Shown piece after piece: positions 6,196 through 43,399 of a stretch of 64,000 bases of DNA. Below the pieces are notes generated by a model, which saw only the letters and a program-made list of their open reading frames with translations, made no database searches and had not been told where the DNA came from. Numbering within the stretch: the first letter of the stretch is position 1; each line of letters begins with the position of its first letter. The translations under genes were made by a program, and so were the position numbers. The DNA is from Botrimarina mediterranea (lineage in GTDB: Bacteria > Planctomycetota > Planctomycetia > Pirellulales > Lacipirellulaceae). The stretch covers positions 1,025,363 through 1,089,362 of the forward strand of contig NZ_CP036349.1 in NCBI RefSeq assembly GCF_007753265.1. The letters run 5' to 3'.

Positions 6196-8544
6196 CTACT
6201 TCAGATACGTTGCCTGTCGCACGGCGACGGGTTGGCTGGTGAACGACGCGCCTTGCTGGTACATGGCGAGGCGTTCGCGGTAGGCGGCGGCGTCGGTCTC
6301 AGGAGCGGCGGCGATCGCTTGTTGCTGGACCTGGGCGGCCTCGTCAAAGCGGCCCGCGGCGGCGAGAGCGGCGGCCTTGGTGTCGAGCGTCAGGTCGTCG
6401 GCGCCACCGGCGAGCTCTTCGGCTCGTTGGGCGTTGGCGACCGCGGCGGCGCCGTCACGGAACTCGGCCACGGGGCACGTCGCCTGCATCCAGGCGAGGT
6501 TGCGATACGCGGCGGGGCTCTGCGAGTCGAGCGAGATGGCCCGCTCGTATGCTTGCTTCGCTTGGCCGTAGCGGCCGAGGTCCACGAGCAGGTCGCCGCG
6601 ACCGGTGGCGATCATGGCGTCGTTGGGAGCGAGCAGCTCGGCGGCGTCGAGGTGTTGGAGGCCTTCGTTGAGACGGCCCAGCATGTGGCAGACGCGGCCG
6701 CGGCCGGTGTGGGCGGGCTCGAAATCAGGATCGATCTCAATCGCTTGCTGATAGTCGCTGAGGGCGGCCTCGAAGTCGCCACGCTGCACGGCGAGGGCGG
6801 CGCGGTTCGAGTAGGCCTTGGCGAACTCCGGGTTCAGCAGCAGCGTGCGGTTGAAGCGGCGACCGGCCTCCTCGGCGTCGCCATTGCGAGCGGCGATCAC
6901 GCCCAGGGCGTGCTCGGCTCGCCAACACTCGGAGTCGCTGCGGAGGGCGTCGAGGTAGTCGGCCTCGGCCTCGTTCATGCGGCCTTCGTTCTCGAACGCC
7001 TCGCCACGCTTGGCGAGGGCCCAGCCGGCGAGCTGATTGGCGTAGCCGATGGCCTCTTGGGAATTGTCGATCGCCAGCACGTAGCTGCAACGCTTGATGA
7101 CGGCGGAGAACTCGTCGGGCGTCTCGGCGGAGGCGGCGAGTTGGTGCGCCTCGGTGAGCAGCGACTTGGCGCGTTCGGTAGCGACCTCAGTCGTCGGCTC
7201 GGCGGCGACGACCGCCGGGCGGCTCGTGGCGGTGTTGGCGTACGCCGCGGGCGCTTGGGCCGCGGGCAATAGTTCACGAACCGTCTCATCCGAGGGCGCC
7301 GGCATCGGACGCGGCGGCAGCGACACAACGACCGGGCCTTGCGCGGCGGTCGGGTTCGGCGGCGTCGGCTCGATCGCGCGGGGCTCTTCGGCCGGTGCGC
7401 TAACGACCTTCGGCATGTCGACTTGCGGCGTGTCGTCGGCGGCGAAGCTCGCGCTGTCGGCGGGTGCCCCGTTGGTCGGCTCTCGCTTGATCGGCGCCGG
7501 CTTGGTAGTCGCGAAGTGGTTCTCGAGGGTCTTCACCTCCGACGAACCTACCGACAGGTTGGCGGCGGTCGGCTTTGGCTGCGAGACGCTGGCAATCGGC
7601 GAACGCTTGACGACGGGCGCGGGCTCGTCGCTGACCATCACCACGCCTTGCGGCATGGACGACGGCTTTGCTGAAGGCTTCGGCACCTGCGGAGTACGTG
7701 CGCTCGACGTTGTGGCGTGCGAAGGCGCGTTGCTGGAGAGATAGCTCGGCGACGGCGTCGGTCCGGCGCTGTTGACCTTTGGCTGGCTGTTGCCGTTCAT
7801 CGCCATGCGTGTTGGCGCCGGCATGCTCGGACGGCTCGCGGTCTGAGTCCCGCCGAACAGCGGTTGCGGCTTCGGACGCTGCTGAGTCGGCTCGCTAGAG
7901 CCGCCGCCCCACAGGCCGGAGAGGAAGCCCTTCTTAGGCCCGGCGTCCTGACGGAGGGCGAGGCCGTCGGCGCGCTTGGCCTGCGACGGAGTCGGTTGAA
8001 GCCGCTGCTGAGGCGCGGCCGCGTGGCGAGTGGTTTGCTGGTTATTTGATTGCGAGGCGACGTAGGAAGGGATGCGCTGGACGCCTTCGTTGCGATTGAA
8101 CGACTTGGTGGCGGCGCCGACGGTTTGGATCCGGGCGTCTTGCGTCGCTTGGGCGAAGTGATCGACCTGGGGCGGCTTCTCTTCTTGGTTGCCGAACGGC
8201 CAGAGAGGCTTCAGCTTGCCGAAGAGTCCCCCCCTGGATGGCTCGGACTGATCAACCGCGCTGGGGCGGACGCCGCCGTTGAATCCGGCCGGGGTGACGT
8301 GGCCCGTCGCCGGCGCGCTCGCGGCGGCCTGGACGGCGCCGCCTTGCGGGGCGGTCCGGGGCGTCAGCGTCGGCCCCGACGCCATCGACGGCAACGGCAG
8401 GTCCGCGGCGTCGAGCATCGCCCGGTCGATCGACTGCATGTCGCCCGCGTAGACGACGCCGGACTGAGCCTGGGTGGCCGAAGCCCCCACGCCCATCGAA
8501 CCGAGAAGACAGCCGGCAATCAGCAGCGGTTGGCGCCTGGTCAT
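6196..8544 (-). CDS. Large secreted TPR-repeat protein
   Basis: A 782-residue protein that starts with a signal peptide (MTRRQPLLIAGC then ASATQAQ). A long proline-, serine- and alanine-rich low-complexity region follows to about residue 480, then a block of tetratricopeptide repeats (for example AYSNRAALAVQRGDFEAALSD). The C-terminal segment with the motif LAWMQATCP is shared with the smaller secreted TPR protein at 35536-36747, so the two are paralogues. An upstream in-frame extension exists, but the ATG at 8544 is preferred because it begins the signal peptide and follows a GAGGAA ribosome site. TPR blocks bind proteins; the partner is unknown. Export across the inner membrane is inferred. 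Confidence 0.85.
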   Translation of the reverse strand: MTRRQPLLIAGCLLGSMGVGASATQAQSGVVYAGDMQSIDRAMLDAADLPLPSMASGPTLTPRTAPQGGAVQAAASAPATGHVTPAGFNGGVRPSAVDQSEPSRGGLFGKLKPLWPFGNQEEKPPQVDHFAQATQDARIQTVGAATKSFNRNEGVQRIPSYVASQSNNQQTTRHAAAPQQRLQPTPSQAKRADGLALRQDAGPKKGFLSGLWGGGSSEPTQQRPKPQPLFGGTQTASRPSMPAPTRMAMNGNSQPKVNSAGPTPSPSYLSSNAPSHATTSSARTPQVPKPSAKPSSMPQGVVMVSDEPAPVVKRSPIASVSQPKPTAANLSVGSSEVKTLENHFATTKPAPIKREPTNGAPADSASFAADDTPQVDMPKVVSAPAEEPRAIEPTPPNPTAAQGPVVVSLPPRPMPAPSDETVRELLPAAQAPAAYANTATSRPAVVAAEPTTEVATERAKSLLTEAHQLAASAETPDEFSAVIKRCSYVLAIDNSQEAIGYANQLAGWALAKRGEAFENEGRMNEAEADYLDALRSDSECWRAEHALGVIAARNGDAEEAGRRFNRTLLLNPEFAKAYSNRAALAVQRGDFEAALSDYQQAIEIDPDFEPAHTGRGRVCHMLGRLNEGLQHLDAAELLAPNDAMIATGRGDLLVDLGRYGQAKQAYERAISLDSQSPAAYRNLAWMQATCPVAEFRDGAAAVANAQRAEELAGGADDLTLDTKAAALAAAGRFDEAAQVQQQAIAAAPETDAAAYRERLAMYQQGASFTSQPVAVRQATYLK

Positions 8545-10803
<2,259 letters not shown>

Positions 10804-33019: not shown

Positions 33020-33835
33020 TTAATCCTTTCCTAAGAGCGACTTCACCGCCAAGGGAAGATCGGCTTGGCGCATCAAAGATTCGCCGACGAGCATCGCGTC
33101 GATGCCCGCGGCGCGGAGGCGTTGGGCGTCGGCGTGGGTTTTGACGCCGCTCTCGCCGACGAAGACCACCTCGGGCGGGACTTGTTGGCGGAGGCGGATG
33201 CAGTGCTCCCGGTCGACCGTCATCGTGCGGAGGTCGCGGTTGTTGACGCCCACCAGCTTCGGGTTGCAAGCGAGCACTGCCGGTAGGTTCGCTGGTTCGT
33301 AGAGTTCCACCAGGACGGTCAGGCCCAGGTCGGTCGCCAGGGCGTGGAGGTCGATCAGCTCGGCAGGGGTCAGGCACTCGGCGATCAGCAGCACGGCGTC
33401 GGCGCCGGCGACGCGGGCCTCGACCACTTGGTGCTCGTCGATCAGGAAGTCCTTCCGCAGCACGGGGAGGTCCACGGCCGCTCGGACCGCCTTGAGGTAG
33501 TCGAGCGAACCCTGGAAGTGCGGCTCGTCGGTCAGCACGCTGAGGCAGCTAGCCCCGCAAGCGGCGTATGTCTGGGCGATTTCCACGGCGTCGAAATCAG
33601 CCCGGATCAGCCCCGCCGAGGGGCTAGCCTTCTTCACCTCGGCGATCAGCTTGATCGGCCCTCCCCCGCCCGCTTGCGAAGGATCAGGCCGCTCGCGGCT
33701 TAGCGGCGCCAAATAATCCCGCACCGGCGGCGCATCCACCAAAGCGGCCCGCAATTCGCCCAAAGGCCGCTCGGCGCGGGCCTGTGCGACCTCCTGTCGC
33801 TTCACGGCGACGATTTTGTCCAGTACCGTCGTCAT
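33020..33835 (-). CDS. trpC: Indole-3-glycerol phosphate synthase
   Basis: A 271-residue TIM-barrel enzyme of tryptophan synthesis. Core motifs are IAEVKKASPSAG, SVLTDEPHFQGS, LPVLRKDFLIDEHQV, LVGVNNRDLRTM and VGESGVKTHAD, with the catalytic Lys and Glu residues in place. Residues 42-60 (LAPLSRERPDPSQAGGGGP), just before the first core strand, look like an insertion. Part of it is encoded by a 25-base sequence identical to a repeat near hemC (see findings). No other trp gene is adjacent. Confidence 0.96.
   Translation of the reverse strand: MTTVLDKIVAVKRQEVAQARAERPLGELRAALVDAPPVRDYLAPLSRERPDPSQAGGGGPIKLIAEVKKASPSAGLIRADFDAVEIAQTYAACGASCLSVLTDEPHFQGSLDYLKAVRAAVDLPVLRKDFLIDEHQVVEARVAGADAVLLIAECLTPAELIDLHALATDLGLTVLVELYEPANLPAVLACNPKLVGVNNRDLRTMTVDREHCIRLRQQVPPEVVFVGESGVKTHADAQRLRAAGIDAMLVGESLMRQADLPLAVKSLLGKD
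33688..33712. repeat. Family H repeat inside the trpC coding sequence (copy H1)
   Basis: The 25 bases beginning GCCGCTCGCGGCTTAGCGGC are identical to 43375-43399. Read on the minus strand they encode LAPLSRER of TrpC, residues 42-49. The sequence can fold on itself through GCCGCT and AGCGGC. Confidence 0.85.
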
Positions 33836-33841
33836 AGTTCA

Positions 33842-33912
33842 GTAGGGTCCGCTTGTAGCGGACCATAACGTTGGGGCCGGCTCAATTGTGGCGGTCCGCA
33901 CAGCGGACCCTA
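33842..33912. repeat. Inverted repeat, family C (copy C2)
   Basis: GTAGGGTCCGCTTGTAGCGGACC on the left is only partly complementary to the right arm, GGTCCGCACAGCGGACCCTAT. The outer 11 bases match copy C1. It lies between trpC and fumC, which are divergent. Confidence 0.82.
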
Positions 33913-41371: not shown

Positions 41372-42406
41372 ATGGCGACCCCGCCGACCGTCACCCCCGA
41401 GCCGCCCAGCCGGTCGCTCGACCCCTTCCGCCGCGCCGTGCTGCGCGGTCTGGGCGTCGTGCTGCCGCCGCTGCTGACGGTGGTGATCTTCATTTGGGTG
41501 GGCGGCACCGTTTCGCGCTACGTGCTGACGCCCTTGGAGGACGCGACTCGCTACGTGCTGGTCGAGTACGTCTCGGACATCCGGCGTCCCGAGGAATTTG
41601 GTGAAGCGAATCCCGGCGAGACCGCCGTGGATGCGAAGGGGAAGGTATTCCACCGCGCGCCCGATGAGCTTTACATTTCAGATCGGGTCTACACGGAAGT
41701 CGAAAAGCGGCTCCGCAAGAGCGAAGCCGTGCCCGCCACGGCGCGCGACTGGGTGCGTCGCTACGTGAATGACGTGTGGTTGGTGCCGTGGATCGTGGTG
41801 CCAATCTTTCTGCTGGTCTTCTTGCTCCTGCTGTACGCGGTCGGCAAGTTCCTGGCTGCGGGGATCGGAAGGTTCTTCCACCACCAGTTCGAGTCGCTGA
41901 TCACCCGCGTCCCGCTAGTGAGTAATGTCTACACCTCGGTCAAGCAGGTGACCGACTTCGCGTTCACCGAGCCGGACCTCGACATCTCGAGGATCGTCGC
42001 TGTGGAGTACCCGCGACAGGGGATTTGGTCGATCGCGTTTGCAACCGGTGAGAGCATGCTCGACATTGAGGCAGCCGCGAACGAGCCGGTGATGAGCGTG
42101 TTGATCCCGACCTCGCCGATGCCCTTCACGGGCTTCACCATCACGGTGAAGAAGAGCGAGACGATCGACATGAACCTGACGATGGACCAAGCCCTGCAGT
42201 TCATCTTCAGTTGTGGCGTCGTCGTACCGCCGCATCAGATCACGCGAGCAATCAACGATCGCCGCGGAGTCGATGGCGCGCCGCCGGACACGTCCGCGTA
42301 CGGTTTAGCGATGGGCAACCCGCCGCTGAAGGGGATGGCTCACCCGCACGGCGCGGTTGGCTCGGGGCCCGTCGAAGCCGATCTCCACAAGGACGAAGAT
42401 GATTGA
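41372..42406 (+). CDS. DUF502 family membrane protein
   Basis: A 344-residue protein of the DUF502 family. The first membrane helix (GLGVVLPPLLTVVIFIWVGG) is followed by a soluble insertion of about 90 residues and a second helix (WIVVPIFLLVFLLLLYAVG). The conserved region VYTSVKQVTDFAF, then VEYPRQGIWSIAFATG and VLIPTSPMPFTGF is typical of the family. The family is conserved in many bacteria without a settled role. The stop overlaps the hemC start by eight bases. Confidence 0.9.
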   Translation: MATPPTVTPEPPSRSLDPFRRAVLRGLGVVLPPLLTVVIFIWVGGTVSRYVLTPLEDATRYVLVEYVSDIRRPEEFGEANPGETAVDAKGKVFHRAPDELYISDRVYTEVEKRLRKSEAVPATARDWVRRYVNDVWLVPWIVVPIFLLVFLLLLYAVGKFLAAGIGRFFHHQFESLITRVPLVSNVYTSVKQVTDFAFTEPDLDISRIVAVEYPRQGIWSIAFATGESMLDIEAAANEPVMSVLIPTSPMPFTGFTITVKKSETIDMNLTMDQALQFIFSCGVVVPPHQITRAINDRRGVDGAPPDTSAYGLAMGNPPLKGMAHPHGAVGSGPVEADLHKDEDD

Positions 42407-43352
42407 GCCGAGCAGCTGTCGACCGTTGCGCCTGGGAACCCGCGGCAGCCAACTCGCGCGGTGGCAGGCGGATTGGGTCGCGGATCGATTGCGGGCGCTC
42501 GGTCAGCCGGTAGAGATTATCGAGGTCCGTACCCGCGGCGACGTTCAGCAGTCGGGGCCGATCAGCGCGATTGTTGAAGGAAGCGGCGTTGGCGGGCAGG
42601 GCGCCTTCACGAAGGAGTTGCAACGCGCGTTGCTCGATGGTTCGATCGACCTCGCGGTCCACAGCCTCAAGGACCTGCCGACGACGCCCGTCGATGGACT
42701 CAAGGTGGGGGCGGTTCCCCAGCGCGCGCCGATTGGCGATGTGCTCGTGTCGCACCTGGCGACGACGATCGATGAATTGCCGCAAGGCGCACGCGTTGGC
42801 ACCGGTAGCTTCCGCCGCCGCGCGCAGTTGCTCAACCGCCGGCCCGACCTGGTGATCGGCGACCTCCGTGGCAACCTCGACACGCGCTTGCGGAAGCTCG
42901 ACGACAGCGAGCACGACGCCATCCTGCTAGCGGAAGCGGGCCTGACGCGGCTCGGCTGGAACGACCGCCTTGCCGGACGCATCCCGCCGAGCGAGCTGCT
43001 TCCGGCGCCGGGGCAAGGGGCGCTGGGGATCGAGTGCCGCTCGGACGATGAACAAACGCTAGCGGCGCTACGGCCTCTCGACGACTTCGGGACGCACGCC
43101 GCCATCGCCGCAGAGCGCGCGGCGCTGGCGCGGCTTGAAGGGGGCTGCCTTGCCGCCCTAGGCGCCTGGGGGCGCTGGGATGCTAGCGAGTTGCGGCTTT
43201 CGGTCGTCGTGTTGAGCGAGGACGGAGTGGAGCGGCTCGACGCGGAGTCGTCGTTCTCCGTCAGCACGCTAGCGGATGCTACGACGCTTGGCGTGACGGT
43301 GGCTGATGAGTTGTTAGCGCGCGGGGCGGCGGCGCTGCTACGCGACCGCTAA
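42399..43352 (+). CDS. hemC: Porphobilinogen deaminase (hydroxymethylbilane synthase)
   Basis: A 317-residue enzyme that joins four porphobilinogens in tetrapyrrole synthesis. Motifs are RLGTRGSQLARWQADW, VHSLKDLPTT, GTGSFRRRAQLL, GDLRGNLDTRLRKL, PAPGQGALGIECR and LEGGCLAALGAW, the last with the cysteine that holds the dipyrromethane cofactor. The ATG at 42399 follows AAGGA. It overlaps the DUF502 gene by eight bases, suggesting coupling. The stop codon lies in the left arm of a family H repeat. Confidence 0.95.
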   Translation: MIEPSSCRPLRLGTRGSQLARWQADWVADRLRALGQPVEIIEVRTRGDVQQSGPISAIVEGSGVGGQGAFTKELQRALLDGSIDLAVHSLKDLPTTPVDGLKVGAVPQRAPIGDVLVSHLATTIDELPQGARVGTGSFRRRAQLLNRRPDLVIGDLRGNLDTRLRKLDDSEHDAILLAEAGLTRLGWNDRLAGRIPPSELLPAPGQGALGIECRSDDEQTLAALRPLDDFGTHAAIAAERAALARLEGGCLAALGAWGRWDASELRLSVVVLSEDGVERLDAESSFSVSTLADATTLGVTVADELLARGAAALLRDR

Positions 43353-43399
43353 GCCGCCAGCGGCACGTTATCCCGCCGCTCGCGGCTTAGCGGCGCCAA
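43348..43399. repeat. Inverted repeat, family H (copy H2)
   Basis: The left arm GCTAAGCCGCCAGCGGC (43348-43364) and right arm GCCGCTCGCGGCTTAGC (43375-43391) match at 16 of 17 positions. The left arm contains the hemC stop codon. The right arm with its flank is identical over 25 bases to a stretch inside trpC. Confidence 0.85.

Follow-up and report, generated by a model that had tools for sequence, protein, structure and literature searches.

How does a repeat word that also stands between genes come to be read as part of an enzyme? In the window, i.e., the whole stretch of 64,000 nucleotides of Botrimarina mediterranea (genome G000) that was analyzed, the 20-mer GCCGCTCGCGGCTTAGCGGC occurs exactly inside trpC, at 33688-33707 on the plus strand and antisense to the gene, and a second time behind hemC, at 43375-43394 (+), where it faces an inverted partner with two mismatches at 43345-43364 (-). 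These three matches compare with 0.05 expected, and none of 100 shuffles contained three. The trpC gene (33020-33835, -) encodes an indole-3-glycerol phosphate synthase of 271 amino acids (Pfam IGPS, PF00218, 280.8 bits against a cut-off of 27; PDB match 3tsm), in which the word reads APLSRERP (A43-P50), within a long linker of residues 42-60 (33656-33712, -) ahead of the first barrel strand. The gene that the initial annotation named hemC is listed at 42357-43352 (+). The best explanation, with a probability of about 0.7, is that the 20-mer is the unit of a REP-like family, linked to RAYT transposases in relatives, and that the trpC copy was written in place.

The initial annotation had described 25 identical bases in trpC and in the inverted repeat behind hemC, and exact matches confirm these, with GCCAA directly 3′ of the word in both copies. 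Of the six exact word copies in the genome, only these two carry the 25-mer. The bases GCCA follow the word position in trpC of two relatives (G001 and G003) that lack the word, and are therefore native to trpC. Behind hemC, the stop codon TAA (43350-43352) falls within the first arm; the doublet comprises 37 nt absent from G001 and folds at -24.1 kcal/mol (z -5.5). Upstream of trpC, a different inverted repeat, TAGGGTCCGC / GCGGACCCTA, is present at 33843-33852 and 33903-33912, with GGTCCGC/GCGGACC pieces between its arms as well.

The repeat family in this and other genomes

The genome contains six exact copies, and 90 at up to three mismatches, compared to 25 for the reversed word. With at most two mismatches and position 7 left free, the family numbers 75 copies against nine for the reversed control, and at one mismatch or less the reversed word has none. 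The three genus mates have five, two and one copies against 10, two and three controls, i.e., no excess. The family is genuine, and among the four genus members compared its amplification is confined to this lineage. Between genes, a unit occurs alone or paired in an inverted doublet, and it can provide a stop codon. In six inverted pairs the spacer measures 2-16 nt, and in one further pair it measures 315 nt. Single 20-mers fold weakly (z -0.9 to -1.5) and doublets strongly, one example being the intergenic, poorly alignable doublet 1683992/1684014 (-32.5 kcal/mol, z -8.6). The copies are unevenly spread, with three of the 75 in the stretch of 2.2-3.5 Mb; after collapsing, the emptiest 1.3 Mb holds three of 68 places, and 22 of 5000 simulations were as empty. 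A site that avoids the replication terminus is a candidate reading of this pattern; GC skew of the sampled DNA did not locate the terminus of G000.

The 20-mer would be the unit of a REP-like family with core GCCGCTNGCGGCTTAGC, found mainly in Planctomycetota. In the GTDB collection, 45 of the 48 stretches with exact matches (position 7 free) come from records labeled as planctomycete. The word is patchy across genomes: at one mismatch or less it is absent from 211 of 246 genomes of the order, and of 294 genomes of the phylum, 278 lack a 14-base core. Core copies number 111 in G020, 84 in G302, 61 in G523, 57 in G000, 35 in G370 and 28 in G379. The 3′ end varies by genome, all 13 copies in G008 ending in TTAGCCGC. 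The foot of the unit reads GCTAA (CTAA), or GCGAA in most G126 units; a GTAG or CGTC foot beside the hairpin was looked for and not encountered, and the family is therefore filed under neither of these superfamilies.

Other repeats occur in the same genomes. A repeat of about 88 bp (L108:18219-18306; L111:1479-1565, 6940-7025 and 10505-10592) is dispersed in G001 and G003, where both of its strands find numerous matches, and is thus itself palindromic; a 58-bp stretch (L108:768-825) recurs many times in G001, G002 and G003.

Words at RAYT loci

The transposase domain PF01797 (Y1_Tnp) was detected in 30 of 31 genomes, both with and without amplification of the word, so that its mere presence is uninformative. 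More can be learned from the surroundings of the genes. With the RAYT of G126 as query, homologs were found in 31 of 60 chosen genomes, and words at these loci were counted at one mismatch or less from the degenerate core CGCTNGCGGCTTNGC. The loci of G126 and G193 contain six words each and those of G207 and G029 five each, compared to a G001 background of 15 per 799 kb. The RAYTs of G193, G207 and G029 are 61-62% identical to that of G126. Words flank all four genes on both sides, mostly as inverted doublets, a single unit taking the place of a doublet on the 5′ side in G207 and on the 3′ side in G029. The G126 locus holds words of the TTCGC and TTAGC types, and the G207 locus holds the exact 20-mer of trpC and hemC. 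In G193, G207 and G029, the RAYT stop codon is the TAA of a REP unit, like that of hemC.

The word is also present inside the four RAYT genes, where it reads LSRER, the reading found in TrpC, or LSRQR (RLRLR in G126). A second in-gene word, 135 nt away, reads AASGLA- or AARGL/FA-like in G193, G207 and G029. Related RAYTs without the word read, e.g., LKGAATRRLRAEG (GAATRRLRAEG) at the first position, and the spacing looks the same by eye. The remaining homolog loci number 26: 21 are without a word, four contain one or two with one mismatch, and that of G379 has an exact core 1.2 kb away. The homolog loci of the amplified genomes G020, G523, G302 and G370 are without the word, and G029 has a RAYT with flanking words, yet no 20-mer at one mismatch or less genome-wide. 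The G126 RAYT passes Pfam Y1_Tnp (27.4 against a cut-off of 23) and scores 52.3 bits with REP_Tyr_transpos (NF047646), below the NCBI cut-off of 80.

In G000 itself, a RAYT of the G126 clade was sought and none was found (best match 24%), and for this reason the family looks orphaned in this genome. The five Y1_Tnp loci of G000 (L216-L220) are without CGCTNGCGGCTTAGCG at two mismatches or less; one of them, L219, which has no intact frame, holds the bare 10-mer GCGGCTTAGC and a GCGGCTTGGC, at distances from the match of roughly 140 and 67 nt, and these were left uncounted. The link between word and RAYT is direct in four genomes, and in G000 it runs through word identity only. The word would belong to one RAYT clade in some relatives and would have multiplied in scattered lineages, this one included. 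Amplification was probably the work of a RAYT of the G126/G193/G207/G029 clade, which G000 may have lost or met only in passing.

Some RAYT genes have other companions. Words beside the RAYTs of G024 and G020 (L235, L230) were rejected, being by eye parts of other repeats. The RAYTs at L221 (G302) and L226 (G370), 36-38% identical to that of G126, lie by eye between other palindromic TTTAGCG repeats. At L216 (G000, 938300-941600), a RAYT-like gene is flanked by TGTAGGAGGCGTCTCCGACGCC and its inverse, and 10-mers of this kind rank near the top for enrichment in the sampled DNA of G000 (GTCTGGAGAC, 29 against 0.6; GGAGGCGTCT, 23 against 1.3). This locus appears to be a separate GTAG-type REP system of G000.

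The trpC copy and other copies inside genes

A TrpC match was present in 59 genomes, of which 30 were aligned and compared. Measured from the RDF-like motif to the first barrel strand, the linker has nine residues in 25 of these 30 relatives, compared to 19 in G000, and it is seven residues longer in G000 than in the best PDB match, 3tsm; the initial annotation was right to call residues 42-60 unusually long. It had attributed the extra segment to the palindrome, and here the comparison divides. The word occurs in trpC of this species only, but the linker of the closest relative, G001, has the same length of 19 residues (LAPLAADRPAPTQTGGGGP against LAPLSRERPDPSQAGGGGP), and those of G003, G002 and G007, the last from another genus, have 15, 14 and 14 residues, all without the word. 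At three mismatches or less, the 30 loci yield the trpC copy of G000 and one near-word in L018 (G048), which has three mismatches and lies within the locus, not placed relative to trpC. The long linker thus predates the word.

At the word itself, TrpC reads LAPLSRERP in G000, LAPLAADRP in G001 and LAPLAAQRP in G003. LAPL and RP are kept, partly with other codons, whereas SRE is not; the outcome that the initial annotation named as refuting its reading, the same residues conserved over differing DNA, is therefore seen in part. In trpC of G001 and G003, GGCGCCGCT already precedes the changed codons and CGGCC already follows them. Compared to G001, the DNA aligns without a gap at the word, with 13 of 20 bases agreeing against 78% in the flanks. 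The gap-free alignment and the restriction of the word to this species argue that trpC was rewritten in place, by substitution and not by insertion. AAD became SRE by base changes without a change in length, in a variable and already long linker, probably after the split of this species from G001. As the segment ahead of barrel strand 1 is under loose constraint, TrpC was presumably unaffected in function. The initial annotation had proposed that a mobile palindrome was domesticated in frame. A repeat of a mobile type is indeed read as protein, also beyond trpC; domestication implies an adopted function, of which this analysis gave no sign.

By codon-usage score, 44 of the 75 copies lie in coding frames, compared to 1163 of 1500 random positions. 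By number of mismatches, these are 15 of 25 copies with none (position 7 left free), 14 of 25 with one and 15 of 25 with two. Four of the six frames of the word are open, the other two containing stops, and the copies are read as AAKPQAA type (20), AACGLAA (14), LSRER (5) and RLRLSG (5). In the DNA comparison, 30 of the 75 copies have a match in 1.46 Mb of G001, 23 of them covered on both sides. The protein-level set comprises 12 of the 75 copies (six exact, two with one mismatch and four with two), and length changes were tallied for eight, the four with two mismatches being set aside. Compared to G001, the exact copies in trpC, at 1439180 and at 1691111 cause no length change, while those at 274078, 218947 and 4516523, the last in the tail of ribosomal protein L28, go with -2, +4 and +3 residues. 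Of the copies with one mismatch, 271617 gains seven residues and 4661977 none, its RLRLSG being identical in G001. Among those set aside, 5769660 and 1007927 are unchanged in length, 4534233 gains three residues in a poorly aligned linker, and 5381559, with 17 of 20 bases already in G001, gave no protein-level result. The copy at 5856990, which failed the in-gene score, has 18 of 20 bases in G001 and no gain in G000.

Five enzymes with the word, picked by eye as recognizable, were aligned to solved homologs. Rpe and LeuRS (both G020), ClpB (G523) and topoisomerase I (L158) show no gap at the word, and purine nucleoside phosphorylase (G000) has a one-residue gap at or near it.

One alternative, which seems improbable, is that the word is selected or driven in the manner of DNA uptake sequences or protein-binding sites, so that mutation toward it is favored in genes and between them. 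Length-neutral words in conserved genes and inverted pairs near gene ends would fit, as would the 13-15 of 20 bases already matching in G001 at five compared copies and the emptiness of the 1.3-Mb stretch. Near-words matching 17 of 20 bases number 29 per Mb in G000 against 4.8 in G001, and those matching 16 number 79 against 44, the G000 rates being biased upward by a sample taken around copies. However, there is no excess worth the name at 15 matches or less, copies are few even in G020, most genomes of the phylum lack the word, and in four genomes it is tied to a transposase. An uptake-like frequent word was discarded as the main reading on copy number and the weak excess of sub-words; outside the sites, GCGGCTTAGC occurs five times against 1.35 expected in 327 kb.

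Somewhat less probable still is in-frame insertion into the trpC linker, as in Rickettsia palindromic elements, with later deletions restoring the G001 length. The in-frame gains at 271617, 218947 and 4516523 demonstrate that family members can go with added residues, and in G020 (L119, L319-L320, L327-L328) both doublet arms are read in frame in one protein, as AARGLAA...AKPQAA in one of 286 amino acids and AACGLA...AAKPQAA in one of 313; these two-arm proteins look like true in-frame doublet insertions. For trpC, however, the in-frame insertion test against G001 gave 0 residues, and the residues on either side of the changed codons are common to G001 and G003. Moreover, the five copies without gain (trpC, 1439180, 1691111, 274078 and 4661977) do not exceed their flanks in divergence from G001, with 72 of 100 bases identical against a flank mean of 0.70, and therefore no foreign tract shows.

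Lastly, that GC-rich, alanine-rich coding sequence produces the word by chance is very improbable: some weaker copies, such as 4661977 and 5381559, may be native, and the reversed word gives nine matches at two mismatches or less, but 25 copies match at every position other than the free position 7, and 15 of these score as lying in genes, whereas the reversed word has none at one mismatch or less. The absence of the word from most genomes of the order means that chance cannot explain the exact in-gene copies as a group. Chance is refuted for the family as a whole, and not fully for a single copy such as trpC.

For the preferred reading, writing in place, candidate routes are repair of partly matching sites with other copies as template, or gradual drive toward the word. 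A tentative and rather doubtful extension holds that the REP family spreads into coding DNA without insertion, by rewriting sites that already match in part; the template would probably be single-stranded REP DNA produced by the RAYT, whose own gene is marked by the word. If repeats can enter genes without a length change, conserved enzymes may be altered genome-wide in a manner invisible to methods that seek insertions. For the question of how REPs multiply, the four RAYT loci provide a test system in which both enzyme and word are defined.

Comparison with known systems

A description of this word was not found in the open-licence literature searched, also when its core GCGGCTTAGC was used, and neither were uptake sequences in Planctomycetes. 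As far as this literature goes, what is new is the family itself, the clade of RAYTs tied to it and the copies written in place. DNA uptake sequences (DUS/USS) combine words inside genes without length change with inverted pairs after genes, and occur in very high copy number. The present word shares the first two traits, but has far fewer copies (57 of the 14-base core in 5.87 Mb), is patchy across genomes and stands beside a transposase in four of them.

Other traits do have precedents. Intragenic REPs, REP-supplied stop codons, in-frame Rickettsia palindromic elements (RPEs) and planctomycete REP/RAYT types are already on record (PMC3733652, PMC6006769, PMC10969869). RPEs (PMC10969869, PMC3733652) are likewise palindromes read in frame in unrelated proteins, and some copies of the present family likewise add residues in frame; however, RPEs are inserted and, according to a review, about 150 bp long, whereas in trpC the copy measures 20 bp and leaves the length unchanged.

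The closest parallels are with REPs and REPINs and their RAYTs (PMC3733652; TnpAY1 survey, PMC6006769): they share a short palindromic unit, tens of copies, inverted doublets, unit-supplied stops, units inside genes and a unit-flanked RAYT, the latter seen here in four genomes. Counting against a REP reading are the length-neutral copies, which are not expected from an inserting transposase, and the location of more than half of the units in genes, unlike typical REPs, which lie mostly between them. Since intragenic REPs are reported (PMC3733652), the in-gene share is a difference and not an exclusion. The family further differs in the lack of a cognate RAYT among the loci found in G000, and in its CTAA foot, compared to the GTAG and CGTC superfamilies (PMC3733652). 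The family is REP-like, but its foot is unusual, and so is the proportion of copies that lie in genes without altering their length, that in trpC included.
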